Below, piece by piece: positions 2,943-44,949 of a stretch of 55,819 bases of DNA. The stretch spans positions 1 to 55,819 of the IMG/VR virus record IMGVR_UViG_3300044832_000059; one strand, given 5' to 3'. Both the position numbers and the translations under genes were made by a program. The DNA comes from a virus. The notes under the pieces are model-generated. The model did no database searches. It was not told where the DNA came from and saw only the letters and a program-made list of their open reading frames with translations. Numbering within the stretch: the stretch's first letter is position 1; each line of letters starts with the position of its first letter.

Positions 2943-3060
2943 TCGGGGTAAGTTGTGTTGGGGTGGGATCGGGCATGGCAGTCAGGGTTAGTCTAGTCAA
3001 ATTATGTCAAGGCATGTTGTGGCAGTCATGGAGAGTTAGGTTATGGCAAGGAGAGTCATG
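2943..3060 (+). repeat. Pentamer-register G/T-rich array A
   Basis: A non-coding leader built of GCAG tetramers (2978-2981 and 3022-3025) each followed by whole pentamers of the form (T/G)NNNG: 7 before the first box, 8 between, 7 after. By hand count 21 of 22 pentamers end in G. GGCAGTC boxes are at 2977-2983 and 3021-3027 (44 nt apart). The 51-bp module 2977-3027 is identical to the reverse complement of 42121-42171. It lies between a promoter and the ribosome site of the 3081 gene and is co-oriented with transcription. Confidence 0.85.
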
Positions 3061-3080
3061 ATGAAAGGGGGTGAATAATA

Positions 3081-3443
3081 ATGAGTGAAGATGTATTAAA
3101 AAAATTTTCAAGTAATACTAATATTCTCAAGTTCAATGAGGATGGAGAGATCTCTGGAATATACAAAAAGGTGTATGAGGAAGATGATCCATTCAGTAAG
3201 GATGGAGGAAAAAGGCTTATTTATCTTATTAAGTCTGATGACGACAATAAGGAGAAGCAGCTTTCTTCAACATCAAAGCGACTTGCGAGAGCGATGTATG
3301 AATCAGGTGCAAATTTTGGGGATCATATCACGATTATGCGTTTTGGTGAAAAATACGAAACAGCATTTAAAGTGAAAGTGTCTGCAAAAGAACAAGTAAC
3401 TGAAACTGAAGAAGCAGTTCCTGATATCGCAGCAGACTTTTAA
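3081..3443 (+). CDS. Acidic hypothetical protein, possible single-strand nucleic-acid binder
   Basis: 120 aa, ATG 3081 with a strong GGGGGTGA site. The N-terminus and middle look like a compact beta domain with an acidic linker ('YEEDDPF') and a conserved-looking 'STSKRLARAMYESGANFG' helix; the C-terminal 25 residues are very acidic, as in many phage single-strand DNA-binding proteins. That tail, the short length and the position between arrays A and B suggest an SSB-like or RNA-binding role. This is inference: no family motif is decisive. Confidence 0.75.
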   Translation: MSEDVLKKFSSNTNILKFNEDGEISGIYKKVYEEDDPFSKDGGKRLIYLIKSDDDNKEKQLSSTSKRLARAMYESGANFGDHITIMRFGEKYETAFKVKVSAKEQVTETEEAVPDIAADF

Positions 3444-3444
3444 G

Positions 3445-3547
3445 GGCAGTCATGGTGGGTCTAGTTATGTTATGTCAAGTCATTTTATGTTTTGGCAGTC
3501 ATGGAGCGTTGGGGCGAGTCATGGACAGGTTGGGAGCGGCAGGAATG
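3445..3547 (+). repeat. Pentamer-register G/T-rich array B
   Basis: Begins one base after the stop of the 3081 gene. GGCAGTC boxes are at 3445-3451 and 3494-3500, with a truncated GGCAG at 3538-3542; the distances are 49 and 44 nt. Between boxes the sequence divides into 9 and 8 pentamers, 16 of 17 ending in G. The register fades after 3547. Same unit rule as arrays A, C and D. Confidence 0.8.
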
Positions 3548-10090: not shown

Positions 10091-11224
10091 TTATCTTGCG
10101 TAGATAATCTTTCTTGTCGATTGCTTTGACACTACCTTGTCAACTGCTCGCTGTGCCTCAATACATGAGGGGCACTCTCTCTTTTTGAGATGATTGCGAC
10201 AATGAACACAAAGCTTTTTTTCTTCTTTATCAATGAGTTTTTGTTTACTCTTTGAAGAATCAAAACTAGATCCACCACCAGGAGATAGGGAAAGTACTTG
10301 TTCGCCTTCAATAACTTCTGATATGCCCCTTGCCATGTCTCTTTGACTCTCTCTATTCATCCACCAATCAAGATAATCATCTTCCTCATCTATTGAGGGA
10401 TTTTTTGATTGATGCTTGGCATAGTCTCTTTGCCACTTGTTATAGTCAGACGCATAACTTCCCACGTATGTATCAGCACTAGAATACTTTGAACTACTTG
10501 CGTAATGCTCCGAAAAGTACGGCTTTGCTTGTATCGTTACTTTACTTACTGCAATTGACCCATTCAGTGAATAAAAGCTGTACTGTATATTCTGCCCCCC
10601 GTCAACAAACTGAAAACCTCTATGGCCCCTGAGTGCCTTACGCAAGTGATCTATATCACTGGAGTAATACACTTGATTGCCTCGTATCGCATAACTAAAC
10701 ACTTGGTCATGTACTGCTACATTAAGCGTATCAAGCTCTCTTTGATCCACGTAAGGAATAGCAAATGATCCTTGTAACTCTTTAAATGCATCAAACTTAT
10801 TTTTCTTATGATTCAAGAGATATCCAATGATTTGACTATCAACCTCATACTCGACCCCAAACTTTCTCTCAAGTTCAAAGAAATTACTCAGTACCCCGTT
10901 ATGAGTGAAAAAGTAATCACCCTCTTTAAATGGATGAGCGTTCTCACTTGTTACCGCACCATGCGTTGCAAACCGTGTATGTCCCAAAATCGTTATAAAC
11001 GGTTGACGACGATATGCACAAAGTAATGTTATAAGCTTTTGATCCTTGAAAAAGGTATCAGCTTCGACAATGTTTTTATAGATAATTGCCTTACTCGGCT
11101 CTTGTCCAATAAGCGCAAGCCCTGTACTATCACGACCTCGTGACACGTTGAGTTCGCCTAACTTCTTAATGATCCCCGTTGTTTGTTTTGTTGGATTGCC
11201 TGTAAATCCGTAAATACCGCACAT
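10091..11224 (-). CDS. Class II glutamine amidotransferase with C-terminal zinc ribbon
   Basis: 377 aa. It begins 'MCGIYGF', exposing the N-terminal nucleophile Cys2 of Ntn-type class II amidotransferases, followed by 'RGRDSTG' near residue 30 and 'GHTRFATHG' near 95, the usual glutamine-binding elements. This domain hydrolyses glutamine to ammonia. No synthase domain follows; instead there is a low-complexity region and a zinc ribbon (C339, C342, C351, C354). A free-standing GATase-II near an amidoligase gene fits the phage peptide/amide-modification gene sets described for amidoligases. Acceptor unknown. Confidence 0.88.
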   Translation of the reverse strand: MCGIYGFTGNPTKQTTGIIKKLGELNVSRGRDSTGLALIGQEPSKAIIYKNIVEADTFFKDQKLITLLCAYRRQPFITILGHTRFATHGAVTSENAHPFKEGDYFFTHNGVLSNFFELERKFGVEYEVDSQIIGYLLNHKKNKFDAFKELQGSFAIPYVDQRELDTLNVAVHDQVFSYAIRGNQVYYSSDIDHLRKALRGHRGFQFVDGGQNIQYSFYSLNGSIAVSKVTIQAKPYFSEHYASSSKYSSADTYVGSYASDYNKWQRDYAKHQSKNPSIDEEDDYLDWWMNRESQRDMARGISEVIEGEQVLSLSPGGGSSFDSSKSKQKLIDKEEKKLCVHCRNHLKKRECPSCIEAQRAVDKVVSKQSTRKIIYAR

Positions 11225-11793: not shown

Positions 11794-13032
11794 TTAACTT
11801 TGTAAATTTGCATACTCAGCCTCATAAGCTCTATTGATCGTTCTATAGTCCTGTTCAGCCTTTGTATATGTCTTTTGTGCCTTTTGTATCTTTTTAATGT
11901 TCTTAATGATTTTACCGGCACTTTCTTGCTGCTTGGCTAGATGATCGAATAAGAACTTATGCACTCGACCTTTGAAATAGACCTCTTGCTTCTCAGTCAG
12001 ACCTAACATATTGCATATATTTGTGATCTTTTGGTCTGAGATCTTTTGGTCAAACAACGCAGTCACTTCACGATGATTGTAATTTTTCAAACAATAGGTG
12101 AAGAACAAAAGCATCAAGTTTACCCACTCAATGACTTTCTTGTATTGCGTTGTCCCTGCATGTAACCGTATCTCAATCGTCCCATGTTGACTCAACGCTT
12201 GCAGATTCATCGTTTGATACCTGCCATTGTTTGTCGAACTTAATTGGTTGATAAGATTCTGTTTACCTCTCAAGAGCTTTCTTCCATTCTTTTGGTCATG
12301 AACATATTGCGAAAGATATCTTTTACAATACGTATTGTTAAATCTTGACCGTGGTTGCGTCGCAAGAAGAAAGTCTTCTATCGCACTCCACGTTAAAATA
12401 ATCCTATTCATGATAAGAGGCGTGAAAAAGCGTTTATTACTCACATGTAAATGAAACCCACATGATGTATTGATATAGACATCGTTGTCAGCAAATGCAT
12501 CACATAGTTTTTTCGTTTCCGCTTTTAGCTCTGTATACGTAAAAGGTCTTTCACCCTTGAACTCTACCCCTTCTGTGTCACTGTCAGTCTCAATTGACCC
12601 GTCACTGTCCCATTCAAATGGTAAGTTACTTACCGCACCCCGTAAATCATCCTCCTGCTCATCAGGTACTAAAGTCTCTAGCTCTATGCCTAACTTAAAG
12701 GATTTATAAGGAATTTTAGGAAGCTCACGTTGTTTAATAATAAAAGGTTTTTTTGTAATACTACTCACCCCCTTTAGTACTTCTGTTTTGTTAGTTTCAA
12801 CGTACGGGGATAACATGCAGTCAGACCATGACCACCTGCTTTGTGATTCGATTTCAATGCTTATCTCATATGAAGAACTATTGATTCTAATTATTGTCGC
12901 ATATCTGCCTATGAGGCTTTCCATGTCTCTATTAGTAGAGCAACAATTTTCTGTTCTTTCCCCATTAGCTCTATAACAATAGCCTGGTGGGTGTGTTTTT
13001 ATAATGACTCTATCGCCTATTTTGTAATTCAT
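11794..13032 (-). CDS. Amidoligase (glutamine-synthetase-like COOH-NH2 ligase)
   Basis: 412 aa. After an about 90-residue N-terminal beta domain, the pfam Amidoligase_2 pattern appears: 'KLGIELETLVPDE' (metal-binding Glu strand), 'GFHLHVSN' (His strand) and 'GTIEIRLHAGT' (the late Glu/Arg element). The C-terminal about 60 residues are a basic coiled coil. Such enzymes join a carboxylate to an amine using ATP, and in phages they occur with GATase-II and ATP-grasp genes, as here (10091, 32749, 40396). Likely role: amide modification of a peptide or wall component; substrate unknown. Confidence 0.85.
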   Translation of the reverse strand: MNYKIGDRVIIKTHPPGYCYRANGERTENCCSTNRDMESLIGRYATIIRINSSSYEISIEIESQSRWSWSDCMLSPYVETNKTEVLKGVSSITKKPFIIKQRELPKIPYKSFKLGIELETLVPDEQEDDLRGAVSNLPFEWDSDGSIETDSDTEGVEFKGERPFTYTELKAETKKLCDAFADNDVYINTSCGFHLHVSNKRFFTPLIMNRIILTWSAIEDFLLATQPRSRFNNTYCKRYLSQYVHDQKNGRKLLRGKQNLINQLSSTNNGRYQTMNLQALSQHGTIEIRLHAGTTQYKKVIEWVNLMLLFFTYCLKNYNHREVTALFDQKISDQKITNICNMLGLTEKQEVYFKGRVHKFLFDHLAKQQESAGKIIKNIKKIQKAQKTYTKAEQDYRTINRAYEAEYANLQS

Positions 13033-16396: not shown

Positions 16397-16470
16397 TCTT
16401 GGGTCGTCTAAAGGTAGGACGTTGGGTTTTGGCCCCAATAATTAAGGTTCGACTCCTTACCCAAGAACCA
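16397..16470 (+). tRNA. tRNA-Gln (anticodon UUG)
   Basis: Full cloverleaf read by eye: acceptor TCTTGGG/CCCAAGA, D arm GTC...GAC with A14, GG and A21, anticodon arm TTGGG-TTTTGGC-CCCAA (anticodon TTG at loop positions 3-5), T arm TAAGG-TTCGACT-CCTTA, discriminator A and encoded CCA (16468-16470). It decodes CAA, and CAG by wobble. The virion proteins encoded downstream are strikingly Gln-rich. It sits between the two terminase genes, 2 nt before the large-subunit ATG. Confidence 0.95.
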
Positions 16471-40205: not shown

Positions 40206-40448
40206 ATGGGAATGACAGCAGATCAACAAATACAGACTCCTCCTACGCCACCTGTTACCAAGCAGGATAACGTTGGTGTTATTGAGTTTCTTTCAGGCAA
40301 AAAGACTTATACTGTTGCTTTTCTTATGGTTGTATATGCAGCGAGTGGATATCTTGTGCATCAATTAACACAGGATCAAGCAATGACGGTTGTCTTTAAT
40401 GCTCTTGCTGTCTCTGGTCTTCGCTCTGCGATAAATTCTCTGAAATAG
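40206..40448 (+). CDS. Holin
   Basis: 80 aa: polar Pro/Thr/Gln-rich start, one clear membrane helix (about 34-52) and a second weaker hydrophobic segment (about 58-75). Size, position directly after the endolysin and topology fit a holin. Its 3' end overlaps the convergent ATP-grasp gene by 53 nt. Confidence 0.7.
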   Translation: MGMTADQQIQTPPTPPVTKQDNVGVIEFLSGKKTYTVAFLMVVYAASGYLVHQLTQDQAMTVVFNALAVSGLRSAINSLK

Positions 40449-41157
40449 CCCTCTTAAAATACTCCACATATTTACTTAATCCATAAGGACTAAGTGCTGG
40501 TGCAGTATTCACTTCACAAATAACTGCATGAGGAAGGGATATATCTGTTGGTTCACTCATAATGTCTACAGCTCCAAAATCAAGCTCTAGAGCTTTAATT
40601 GCCTTCTTTGCTAGTCGAATCACTTCAATGTCCCATTCATGCTGATACAGGTATCTGAATTTGAATCCCTTCTTATGATTCCAATTCTTTGCATGTAAAT
40701 CACCATTCTCTTTAATTGAAATTGCAATAAGCTTTCCTGAACCAATATGTACTCGATATTCTTTTGTTTTTGGGTAGTAAGGACTAAAATATTGTGCTCC
40801 TTTTCTTATTGCTCTTCTCACATCATAAATGTCATGACAGTAGAAGAACTTTCTTCCTCCCTTATGATGATCTGGTCGTGCGACGCAAGGGAACGTTTCA
40901 GGAGGAACAGAGAGAAGCTGAGGCGTTGGTAAGTCATTATTCATAAAGATACGTCTTGCGGTTTCTTTATTTGTTGCGTTTCTTACTGCTTGTGCTGAAT
41001 TGAGATAATTGCCTTGGGGTCCCGAAGTAGTTACTCCCCATCGTATAATTGTTGAAACAGGTGGCTTATAAGATGAATTGGGGTAGAAAAGAGAAAAGTC
41101 CAGCATTTCTGCTAGACTTTTGCTTGTCTTTGATTTAACACTAAAAATACCAATCAT
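40396..41157 (-). CDS. ATP-grasp ligase (RimK/YheC-like)
   Basis: 253 aa. ATP-grasp features: 'FPCVARPDHHKGGRKFFYC' (nucleotide-binding lysine and Gly loop), 'EYRVHIGSGKLIAI' (hinge strand) and 'AVICEVNTAPALSPYG' (E-x-N metal ligands). This class forms amide bonds, for example adding amino acids to peptides. Second ATP-grasp of the genome; together with amidoligase and GATase it implies amide chemistry. Array C lies immediately upstream as its leader. Confidence 0.82.
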   Translation of the reverse strand: MIGIFSVKSKTSKSLAEMLDFSLFYPNSSYKPPVSTIIRWGVTTSGPQGNYLNSAQAVRNATNKETARRIFMNNDLPTPQLLSVPPETFPCVARPDHHKGGRKFFYCHDIYDVRRAIRKGAQYFSPYYPKTKEYRVHIGSGKLIAISIKENGDLHAKNWNHKKGFKFRYLYQHEWDIEVIRLAKKAIKALELDFGAVDIMSEPTDISLPHAVICEVNTAPALSPYGLSKYVEYFKRAISENLSQSEDQRQQEH

Positions 41158-41171
41158 ATTCTCATATCCTT

Positions 41172-41420
41172 AACTGCCAAGACCTGCCTCGACAGAACTA
41201 AACACAACCCAACTTACCCTGACTGCCAATACACAACGGTACACAACACAACTCGCCACGACTGCCTGTACACTCCTTAACACTACCAGACTAACCCCGA
41301 CTGCCCTACCTGGACACAACACAACTCGCCACGACTGCCATGCATTGCCCCAACAGTCCCAGACCCTCCCTGACTGCCTTGCCATGACTAAACCCACCTT
41401 GACGGTCCTTGACTGCCACA
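41172..41420 (-). repeat. Pentamer-register G/T-rich array C
   Basis: Between two minus-strand genes. Box complements at 41411, 41372, 41333, 41299, 41260 and 41221 (GACTGCC) and a variant AACTGCC at 41172 give distances 39, 39, 34, 39, 39 and 49 nt. Read on the minus strand it is GCAG plus 7, 7, 6, 7, 7 and 9 pentamers; 42 of 43 end in G and all begin with T or G. Two units share the same first 20 nt after the box. It precedes the ATP-grasp gene. Confidence 0.88.
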
Positions 41421-41423
41421 TAC

Positions 41424-41936
41424 TTATTTTTCTAGTTCAGATTCAATTTCTTTTAATTTCTCTTCGTTAATTATTCCATTTAATTCAGAAACCATTTTGT
41501 ATTTTTCCTGAGCATGTCTTATTTCACGAATAGCACTCCTTAATACAGCAGAATGTAATTTTTCATTGTTTAGTACTTGTTCGATAGGAAAGTATTTACG
41601 TACTTTCTTATCTTCCAAAGTAACTTGTACATTAAAGAATGCAGGTTTTTCTTTACCTTCTATGGTTACACGAACGCTATTGATGAGTAGACGAGCTTGC
41701 ATTAATCGGTATCGATCTCCAGCTCTCTTATCATCCCATTCAAAGATTCTATGAAGAGGAGATGTCTCTGATTTTGCTTCTTCGACAACATCTTGAGGTG
41801 TTAATTCTTCTCCATTTTTTGCAGCAAGAAGTTCTAAAGCCTTTTTATATTCTCCTCTTTTTGTGTTTTCTTTAATTTCAATGTAATCTTTTTTTGTTAA
41901 TGTTGATAGTAATCTATCATATCCTTGATATTTCAT
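41424..41936 (-). CDS. Hypothetical protein of a common phage family
   Basis: 170 aa from ATG 41936 with GGGGGGTGA upstream. It has the pattern 'LTPQDVVEEAKSETSPLHR' then 'FEWDDKRAGDRYRLMQAR' and 'LINSVRV', a recurring uncharacterised family often near single-strand DNA-binding or recombination genes of phages. C-terminal coiled coil. Bracketed by arrays C and D. Confidence 0.75.
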   Translation of the reverse strand: MKYQGYDRLLSTLTKKDYIEIKENTKRGEYKKALELLAAKNGEELTPQDVVEEAKSETSPLHRIFEWDDKRAGDRYRLMQARLLINSVRVTIEGKEKPAFFNVQVTLEDKKVRKYFPIEQVLNNEKLHSAVLRSAIREIRHAQEKYKMVSELNGIINEEKLKEIESELEK

Positions 41937-41969
41937 AATATTCACCCCCCTTTACTAGAGTAGGACTTA

Positions 41970-42205
41970 CTTGCTGGTCCACACCTTGCCTTGACGCAAC
42001 TTGACGCAACTAGCCCAGACTGCCCTGACATACCCATCCACATCAAACCACTACATACCGAAACGGACCTTGCCTGGACTGCCATGCCCTACTGAGACAC
42101 AACCCAACTTGACATTCCCCGACTGCCACAACATGCCTTGACATAATTTGACTAGACTAACCCTGACTGCCAAGACCTGCCTCGCCCCAATTCACCATGA
42201 CTGCC
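41970..42205 (-). repeat. Pentamer-register G/T-rich array D
   Basis: Box complements at 42018, 42077, 42121, 42165 and 42199 give distances 59, 44, 44 and 34 nt. On the minus strand the blocks hold 6, 8, 8, 11 and then about 10 pentamers; 39 of 43 end in G. The block 42121-42171 is identical over 51 bp to array A. It ends just before the SD site of the 41936 gene. Confidence 0.88.
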
Positions 42206-42258: not shown

Positions 42259-42864
42259 CTATTCATCAGTAGTTTCGATTTCGAACGTTCCATTATCGCC
42301 ATTTCGTTCTGGTCTCCATTCTCCAAGTCCTTGACTAAATCCTGCTCGTTGTAACAGATTAAGAACCTGTTCACTAGAGAGGATGTTGGCATCGAACTTA
42401 ATCATAAGTTCCATTGACCATCCTTCCACTTGTCCTCGGAAACGAATGTCGGCAGTTCCCATTCCTACAGTAACCATATCTTGTCTCATGGTTTTTTCCT
42501 TATAGGTAAGTGGAATGAATCCATCTTTATCTCCTTCGACAAAGAGTGCCCCACGAAGAATTGTCATTGGGACACCATTGATGAATCGTGCTGATCCGAC
42601 AATTGCTTGCTTAATATTTCGTGCTGGGAAAGCAATGTTTCCTTCTGAGTCGTAGTAGAAACTACTTTCGTATTCCTTTTCAGGATCACGAACCTCACGT
42701 CCTTTCTGAGCTTTTTTCATTTGCTTATCAAGGATCATTCTGATTGCTTTTTCGTCCCATTTATGAAAAATTAAGGGAGCAGTTCCGTTGATCTTAACTT
42801 TCATTAATTGAATGTTCATTGCGGGAATTGATAATCCCTGAACGTCTTTTTTTGCTATTGGCAT
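42259..42864 (-). CDS. Phage protein of the 'GxGEWRP' family (RAMP/Cas7-like candidate)
   Basis: 201 aa, ATG 42864 with a strong GGGGGTGA site. 'MKVKINGTAPLIFHKW' near 20-37, a middle with 'AFPARNIKQAIVGSARF', and the C-terminal 'GLGEWRPERNGDNGTFEI'. This family is frequent in phages and lacks a known activity; its beta-alpha-beta pattern with a Gly-rich C-terminal loop recalls RAMP-fold proteins such as Cas7. If so it would bind nucleic acid along its backbone. Upstream of array D, same operon. Confidence 0.7.
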   Translation of the reverse strand: MPIAKKDVQGLSIPAMNIQLMKVKINGTAPLIFHKWDEKAIRMILDKQMKKAQKGREVRDPEKEYESSFYYDSEGNIAFPARNIKQAIVGSARFINGVPMTILRGALFVEGDKDGFIPLTYKEKTMRQDMVTVGMGTADIRFRGQVEGWSMELMIKFDANILSSEQVLNLLQRAGFSQGLGEWRPERNGDNGTFEIETTDE

Positions 42865-44223: not shown

Positions 44224-44949
44224 TTAGTAAAACCTTATCTGGTTGGTTTTTAGGCCGTAATTGTAAATATCTTCAAGGTCACGAAGATATTCTTTTGTTG
44301 ATAATCGAGAACGCAGTCTCTCTCCTCGTTCAATAACTTTCTCTTGAAAAGTTTCTTTATCAACTTTACTCCATACCTTTTTGATTGCAGAGATGAAGTC
44401 TCGTGATCTCCATACCTGTCCTTCGGTATATGGTTTAAGTTTTGTCAAAGCTTGCGCTTCTTCATCAGCTTGTTTAAGAGATGTAACCTTAAACAATCCT
44501 GTTTTAAAGATGTATAATCGACCTCCTGACGAAATAGGAGACTCAGGTGATACGCCACTCAATAAGGAAACTGATACCGTTATCGGAAGATTATATTTAT
44601 CTAAGAAATCCTTAAGAATCATATATTCTTCGTTTTCTAGCTCAATATAACTGTCAAGATAATCTTGCAATGTCCATGGCTTTGTATTAACATTAAGACG
44701 ACGAACATCTTCAAGAGTTCCTTCTTCACGTTCAATGTAATAAAAGGGAACTTCAAGAATCTTTGCAGCTTCTAATCGATGTTGTCCATCAATAATTTTT
44801 CCGCTAGCTACGATAATGGGGTTTTCTTCAAGCATGTTTTTCTCCTGGATAGATTTAACCAAGTGACTGACATGACTTTTGTAGACCTTTCTGTTACCAA
44901 CAAAGGTATCAAATTGGTCGTAATTTGATGTTTTAACTATTGTATTCAT
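44224..44949 (-). CDS. ParB-like nuclease-domain protein
   Basis: 241 aa, ATG 44949 with GGAGGTGAG. N-terminal ParB/sulfiredoxin domain: 'VSHLVKSIQEKNMLEENPIIV' then 'GKIIDGQHRLEAAKIL', the conserved GQHRxxA nucleotide-binding motif. The helical C-terminus does not look like a partition HTH. Phage members of this family act as regulators or nucleases; no parA is present. Confidence 0.85.
   Translation of the reverse strand: MNTIVKTSNYDQFDTFVGNRKVYKSHVSHLVKSIQEKNMLEENPIIVASGKIIDGQHRLEAAKILEVPFYYIEREEGTLEDVRRLNVNTKPWTLQDYLDSYIELENEEYMILKDFLDKYNLPITVSVSLLSGVSPESPISSGGRLYIFKTGLFKVTSLKQADEEAQALTKLKPYTEGQVWRSRDFISAIKKVWSKVDKETFQEKVIERGERLRSRLSTKEYLRDLEDIYNYGLKTNQIRFY

Follow-up and report, generated by a model that had tools for sequence, protein, structure and literature searches.

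The four intergenic arrays of this phage (IMG/VR record IMGVR_UViG_3300044832_000059; the window is the whole stretch of 55,819 nucleotides analysed) are best explained as guide RNA (vrRNA) arrays of a phage VIPR system, a reading to which we assign a probability of about 0.94. The identification is based on the grammar of the arrays, their conservation, their association with particular genes, the homology of a neighbouring gene product to Vipr, its predicted fold, and matches decoded from the guides. As described in the main text of a preprint (PMC13142463), VIPR (Viral Interference Programmable Repeat) is used between phages and consists of a RAMP protein, Vipr, and of vrRNAs made of GGY/NN pentamers, in which GGY is fixed and dsDNA is recognised through the NN pairs, one base being skipped between them. 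According to the same text, the Vipr protein of SUSP1 can bind and repress dsDNA whichever strand is targeted, transcription of the target is silenced by this binding, and type II vrRNAs comprise 9–16 repeats; the preprint also mentions related consensus motifs, as well as arrays in which overlapping vrRNAs are staggered, and the latter may be the boxed architecture present in the window. The first-pass annotation of this DNA held that the arrays match no element known to its author, a statement overtaken by the description of VIPR in 2026. The kind of element is already known; new are a GTY-rich consensus, box-delimited guides and probable transposase targets.

Grammar of the arrays

All four arrays, which lie where they were first noticed, are strings of pentamers G-K-Y-N-N whose register is reset at GGCA boxes, and all four are located on the mRNA-sense strand of the flanking genes. 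Arrays A (2944–3064, + strand) and B (3445–3547, +) are remote from vipr and lie upstream and downstream, respectively, of ORF 3081. Array C (41172–41417, −), downstream of the accessory gene, contains six short guides of 6–7 pentamers and a terminal double box, and array D (41976–42205, −), between vipr and the accessory gene, contains at least five box-delimited guides. When pentamers were read starting at the final G of each GGCAG box, positions 1–3 were occupied by G (93%), K (99%) and Y (85.5%) in the 103 pentamers of closed box-to-box segments, with positions 4 and 5 free. Over 299 segments from all loci, the corresponding fractions were.94,.96 and.91, again followed by two free bases. 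The consensus of the window is rich in GTY (T at 64% of pentamer positions 2), compared with the published GGY. The K-NNN-G pentamer described in the first-pass annotation is the identical string in another phase; its claim that base identity outside K and G is loose was correct for positions 4 and 5 and overlooked a third conserved position, the pyrimidine.

For the register statistics, 2000 dinucleotide shuffles were generated with the boxes held fixed. G was found at position 1 in 76 of the 81 scored pentamers (shuffles 28.7 ± 4.0, maximum 42; z = 11.8), K at position 2 in 80 (z = 6.5) and Y at position 3 in 67 (z = 6.9), showing that the periodic register is real and is not reproduced by shuffled sequence of matched dinucleotide composition. 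A recount of the 13 box-to-box distances (GGCAGT boxes, plus the last GGCAG of array B) returned the values reported earlier, 34, 39, 44, 49 or 59 nt, all of them 4 modulo 5; for 12 out of 12 long spacings the chance of this is 4e-9. The GGCA box measures 4 nt, one short of a pentamer, and so resets the register. If every GGCAG is counted, GGCAGGTCTTGGCAG, present once in C and once in D, adds two spacings of 10 nt; in these double boxes one of the two boxes is merely in register, and the 4-modulo-5 rule is unchanged. Apart from one tRNA, Rfam detected no ribozymes or other known RNAs in the window, and the arrays lack the hammerhead ribozymes of VIPR systems with hammerhead-interspersed arrays. 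A promoter and terminator scan of the locus remained at chance level. A tRNA gene (16397–16467, +) immediately precedes the gene for the terminase large subunit (16473).

The Vipr homologue and neighbouring genes

By homology and predicted fold, ORF 42259 (42259–42864, −; 201 aa) is a vipr gene whose product is a RAMP protein predicted to bind array RNA. In a phmmer search, the single sequence matched PDB entry 36pp ('SUSP1 Vipr protein') with an E-value of 2.8e-8 and gave no other real match; the profile of its 19-member family reached 7.8e-17 with the same entry. The AlphaFold2 model (pLDDT 81.8) matched Csm3/Cas7 in Foldseek (E = 1.4e-6, probability 1.0), with type III and VII RNA-targeting complexes as the best structural neighbours, and the protein carries a Gly-rich loop, GLGEWRPERNGDNGTF. 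The nearest named phages found by tblastn were Gordonia phage Ecliptus (39%) and Mycobacterium phage Donkeykong (37%), SUSP2 and its Felixounavirus relatives being more distant (27–28% identity, E = 2e-8). Between arrays C and D lies the accessory gene, a vap candidate (phrog_15946; 41424–41945, −; 173 aa), such that vipr is accompanied by intergenic arrays and a vap candidate, with D and C surrounding ORF 41424. A fold search with ORF 41424 gave no confident match, and the protein is unrelated (hhalign probability 0.2%) to the second ORF of SUSP2, which we infer from its position to be Vap1.

ORF 42259 is likely the protein that reads the register of the arrays. The multimeric reader with a 5-nt step envisaged in the first-pass annotation is therefore well supported in its Cas7-like form by this neighbouring Vipr/RAMP protein, and unsupported as a TRAP-like ring. 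Of the three binders proposed there, ORF 42259 is the likely reader, ORF 41424 is a conserved accessory protein, and ORF 3081 is tied to the arrays only by its position between A and B. ORF 3081 (3081–3443, +) encodes 120 aa with an acidic tail ending in PDIAADF; no relatives were found in the viral contigs, phages or families searched. The acidic tail had raised the idea of a single-stranded DNA-binding protein (SSB), for which nothing was found in support. Other genes of the same phage include a gene for a ParB-like protein, upstream of the VIPR genes (44224–44949, −), a RimK/ATP-grasp-like gene directly behind array C (40396–41157, −), and glutamine-amidotransferase-like and amidoligase-like genes (10091–11224 and 11794–13032, both −); the last three possibly form a peptide or surface modification set.

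Distribution in phages and bacteria

A search of viral metagenomes with the array grammar, as proposed in the first-pass annotation, was carried out in IMG/VR with a pattern taken from part of that grammar, and among the many matches listed numerous other loci were found. A permissive array filter retained at least 33 entries of one locus strand each, including four that cover the window itself in overlapping sections; most keep the 4-modulo-5 spacing. Protein clustering placed the families of ORF 42259 and ORF 41424 in at least 27 array-bearing loci each, where they almost always adjoin each other and an array. A search with the Vipr profile returned 37 loci in bacteria, and GKYNN/GGCA arrays are present at nearly all of them. 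Dozens of phages and prophages, from many bacterial phyla, combine Vipr, the accessory gene and a boxed array, and the register is kept in many viral and nearly all of the bacterial loci.

Two cultured phages, Donkeykong and Ecliptus, have arrays with the same boxes and pentamers as the window, next to Vipr proteins 37–39% identical to ORF 42259, and their genes are annotated as hypothetical. The array precedes vipr in Donkeykong and follows it in Ecliptus, and the window has two further, remote arrays. In Donkeykong the boxed array (L426, 2507–2816) lies before vipr (gp49), in a region of repressor, anti-repressor and excisionase genes.

Comparison with known systems

With the type II VIPR of SUSP1 and SUSP2, as presented in the main text of PMC13142463, the window shares a Vipr homologue, pentamers of fixed GKY and free NN, and the one-base-skip code; in both, intergenic vrRNA lies around vipr and a second small gene lies behind it. 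In contrast to the window, SUSP2 has separate pentamer tracts, each with a longer non-pentameric tail, and no arrays with GGCAG boxes; the window has boxed multi-guide arrays without tails, a different accessory protein and GTY-rich pentamers. Individual vrRNAs with an invariable 3' tail and a match to Vap1, which are features of type II and the SUSP1 clade, were not found in the window, and the window guides (6–11 pentamers) include guides of 6–8 pentamers that are shorter than type II vrRNAs. Behind one pentamer tract of SUSP2 (L424, 3060–3110), a GGCAG is followed by a CTGCC with which it could form a hairpin, and the lone GGCAG in boxed arrays may represent what is left of a tail of this kind. 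Staggered VIPR arrays (S18 in PMC13142463) presumably resemble the window in having guides head to tail without individual tails. The decoded targets match box-to-box segments only.

The RAMP fold predicted here and the G-loop are shared with the Csm3/Cas7 backbones of class 1 CRISPR-Cas systems. Such backbones form an oligomer on guide RNA with periodic unpaired positions, the period being 6 with one displaced base. By analogy, the Vipr protein of the window would form an oligomer on guide RNA with periodic unpaired positions, its period being 5 with three fixed bases, and there is no repeat/spacer array; no Cas families were present among the Pfam, NCBIfam or PADLOC matches of neighbouring ORFs. 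Leaders bound by TRAP carry (G/U)AG triplets with spacers of 2–3 nt, unlike the window arrays, in which positions 2 and 3 are K and Y rather than A and G.

Decoding of the free bases

If the NN pairs are target bases, their statistics are expected to resemble those of coding DNA. For the 2652 NN pairs of all loci, a model of codon positions 1–2 scored 84 log units above genome-wide dinucleotides and a model of codon positions 2–3 scored 172 below them, codon positions 1–2 being ahead by 255 log units; this preference was not visible in the 95 NN pairs of the window alone. A guide of 12 pentamers from a Sphingopyxis indica locus (L164), read with a skip of one base, matched 23 of 24 bases at a single site among 398 family genomes, in which its control found no match and about 7e-4 matches are expected by chance (arithmetic from genome sizes). 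The target keeps the reading frame (AAYNNLGHVKPGNI) of a prophage tail-module gene, which lies directly downstream of the tape-measure gene; the same guide had no match in six named genomes. A guide of 11 pentamers from a Rhizobium leucaenae locus (L135) gave one match (20/22), which lies within a phage portal gene (PF04860), keeps its reading frame and has both mismatches in one codon; about 0.3 such matches are expected, so that the number alone is not significant. Because these two guides decode in frame, boxed arrays also obey the wobble-aligned code with its one-base skip, and, judged by these matches, the predicted targets of their guides include structural genes of phages. Guides of two further loci (L140 and L155) gave marginal matches with no open frame in the expected phase and were rejected. 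A comparison of all guides with 1.4 Mb of fetched loci at skips of 0–3 gave matches at chance level.

In L164, L135 and two guides of array D (D4 and D5, the latter without a closing box), complementarity fills the box-to-box segment, and at no offset tested does it extend to the adjacent segment. One targeting unit thus corresponds to one box-to-box segment, and guides running through the boxes are unsupported, since complementarity ends there. The box may be a processing or capping site.

Guides of the window and their probable targets

Guide D4 (42025–42079, −; 11 pentamers) decodes with a skip of one base to CANAANCCNTCNATNGTNTTNGTNTGNATNAG, the antisense of the motif (I/V)HTNTIEGFW of IS1595-family transposases. 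Its first 16 specified bases had 100 matches in viral contigs, compared with 11 when the pairs were taken in reversed order. At 68 loci an ORF carries (H)TNTIEGFW at the site, with the guide on the antisense strand and the skips on wobble positions, and three example target ORFs are IS1595-family transposases (PF12762). Four of the remaining six bases are matched in 24 contigs and five in three contigs, resulting in 27 contigs at 20/20 or better and 3 at 21/22, homologous matches counting as one family event with about 0.04 chance events at 20/20 expected per guide (11/256) and several guides tried. None of the copies seen matches both bases of the last pair (Leu codon CTN). On ten IS1595 genes taken independently from plasmids, only a skip of one base scored above shuffled guides. 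The 398 genomes of the phylum of G007 yielded only 3-mismatch matches for D4, equally many in the control, and six genomes yielded no match.

Guide D5 (41976–42020, −; 9 pentamers) reads in frame as CYAKAKNVP of IS1-like transposases. It had 17 matches, four of them in divergent IS1-like transposases (PF03400), including two at 18/18, and the target ORFs read (C/I)DE(I/A)W(S/A)FCYAKAKNV. For the other window guides, matches to IS1595 and IS1 genes did not exceed those of shuffles. The guide shared by arrays A and D (A1 and D2) had 119 matches, AT-rich and mostly with in-frame stops, and guides B2 (12 matches) and D3 (11 matches) were also at chance level; three of the five window guides searched thus gave only chance-level matches, and most window guides are without a target. 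On the strength of these matches, D4 and D5 quite probably aim at transposase genes of mobile elements of the IS1595 family and the IS1-like group, respectively. More tentatively, and at somewhat less than even odds, the phage VIPR array may be directed largely against insertion sequences, with guides on codons of the IS1595 and IS1-like catalytic motifs, and would then constitute programmable transposon silencing with box-delimited guides that can be copied between arrays. Guides A1 (2981–3020, +) and D2 (42128–42167, −; 8 pentamers) are identical over the whole 40-nt segment including both boxes and lie 39 kb apart, indicating that guides are copied from one array to another. In array C, the first four pentamers of two guides are the same (GTCGT GGCGA GTTGT GTTGT) and the later ones differ, and the guides of this array look as if they had been shuffled piecewise.

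Alternative explanations

The arrays could be untranslated binding ladders for a multimeric regulator, TRAP-like or an autoregulating SSB, with free bases that carry no message. In line with this, all four are mRNA-sense and beside genes, and arrays A and D end just before the starts of ORFs 3081 and 41424, respectively. We consider such ladders highly improbable, as over all loci the NN pairs follow codon positions 1–2 and decode to phage and transposase genes in frame, a predicted RAMP fold accompanies the array family, and no relative of ORF 3081 turned up in the collections searched. The earlier picture of a protein-bound ladder was right in assuming a protein reader and has to be revised in that the free bases are the message and the arrays guide RNAs rather than passive ladders. 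Only marginally more probable is that these VIPR arrays target RNA instead of DNA, as the analogy with the Csm3/Cas7-like fold and its best neighbours, the type III and VII RNA-targeting complexes, might suggest. Targeting of RNA is unlikely: L164, L135 and D5, three of the four guides decoded, have coding-strand sense, which prevents base-pairing of their RNA with the target mRNA; moreover, the main text of PMC13142463 reports binding and repression of dsDNA by SUSP1 Vipr for either strand.

Clearly more probable than these two, and still unlikely in our view, is that the VIPR guides are true and the IS1595 and IS1 matches are chance matches to abundant conserved families, the real targets being unsampled phages. 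IMG/VR is redundant, and one chance match to a family therefore yields many matches; an exact 22/22 IS1595 site was not found, including in the 398 genomes of the phylum of G007, and other guides gave small chance clusters. Against this stand the reversed-order control of D4 (11 versus 100), the agreement of its remaining pairs, the excess of the one-base skip alone over shuffles on independent IS1595 genes, and the independent finding of transposases as targets of two guides of array D, each in wobble register. We thus retain transposase genes as the probable targets of D4 and D5.

Proposed mechanism and implications

By analogy with the published SUSP1 system, the arrays would be transcribed on the strand reading GKYNN and assembled into a ribonucleoprotein, in which the RAMP protein encoded by ORF 42259 would coat the array RNA with one subunit per pentamer, holding the fixed GKY and leaving the following two bases free. 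Each GGCA box would end one guide, start the next and reset the register. The NN pairs of one segment, read NNxNNx..., would pair with dsDNA, mostly coding, with the skip on the wobble position, and the target-bound complex would silence transcription of the target as in characterised VIPR. At least two guides of the window phage would most likely be aimed at IS1595-family and IS1-like transposase genes; if so, one guide would cover many IS variants because the wobble bases are skipped. The main text of PMC13142463 names no insertion sequences as VIPR targets.

The VIPR grammar was here rediscovered independently from raw sequence alone, and the system is extended by box-delimited arrays whose guides can be decoded to named genes. 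With cultured phages of harmless laboratory hosts that carry the same type of array, the processing of boxed arrays becomes directly testable. If the transposase reading is true, conserved catalytic codons are chosen as targets, and VIPR, besides serving as a weapon between phages, would be a means by which phages check mobile elements.
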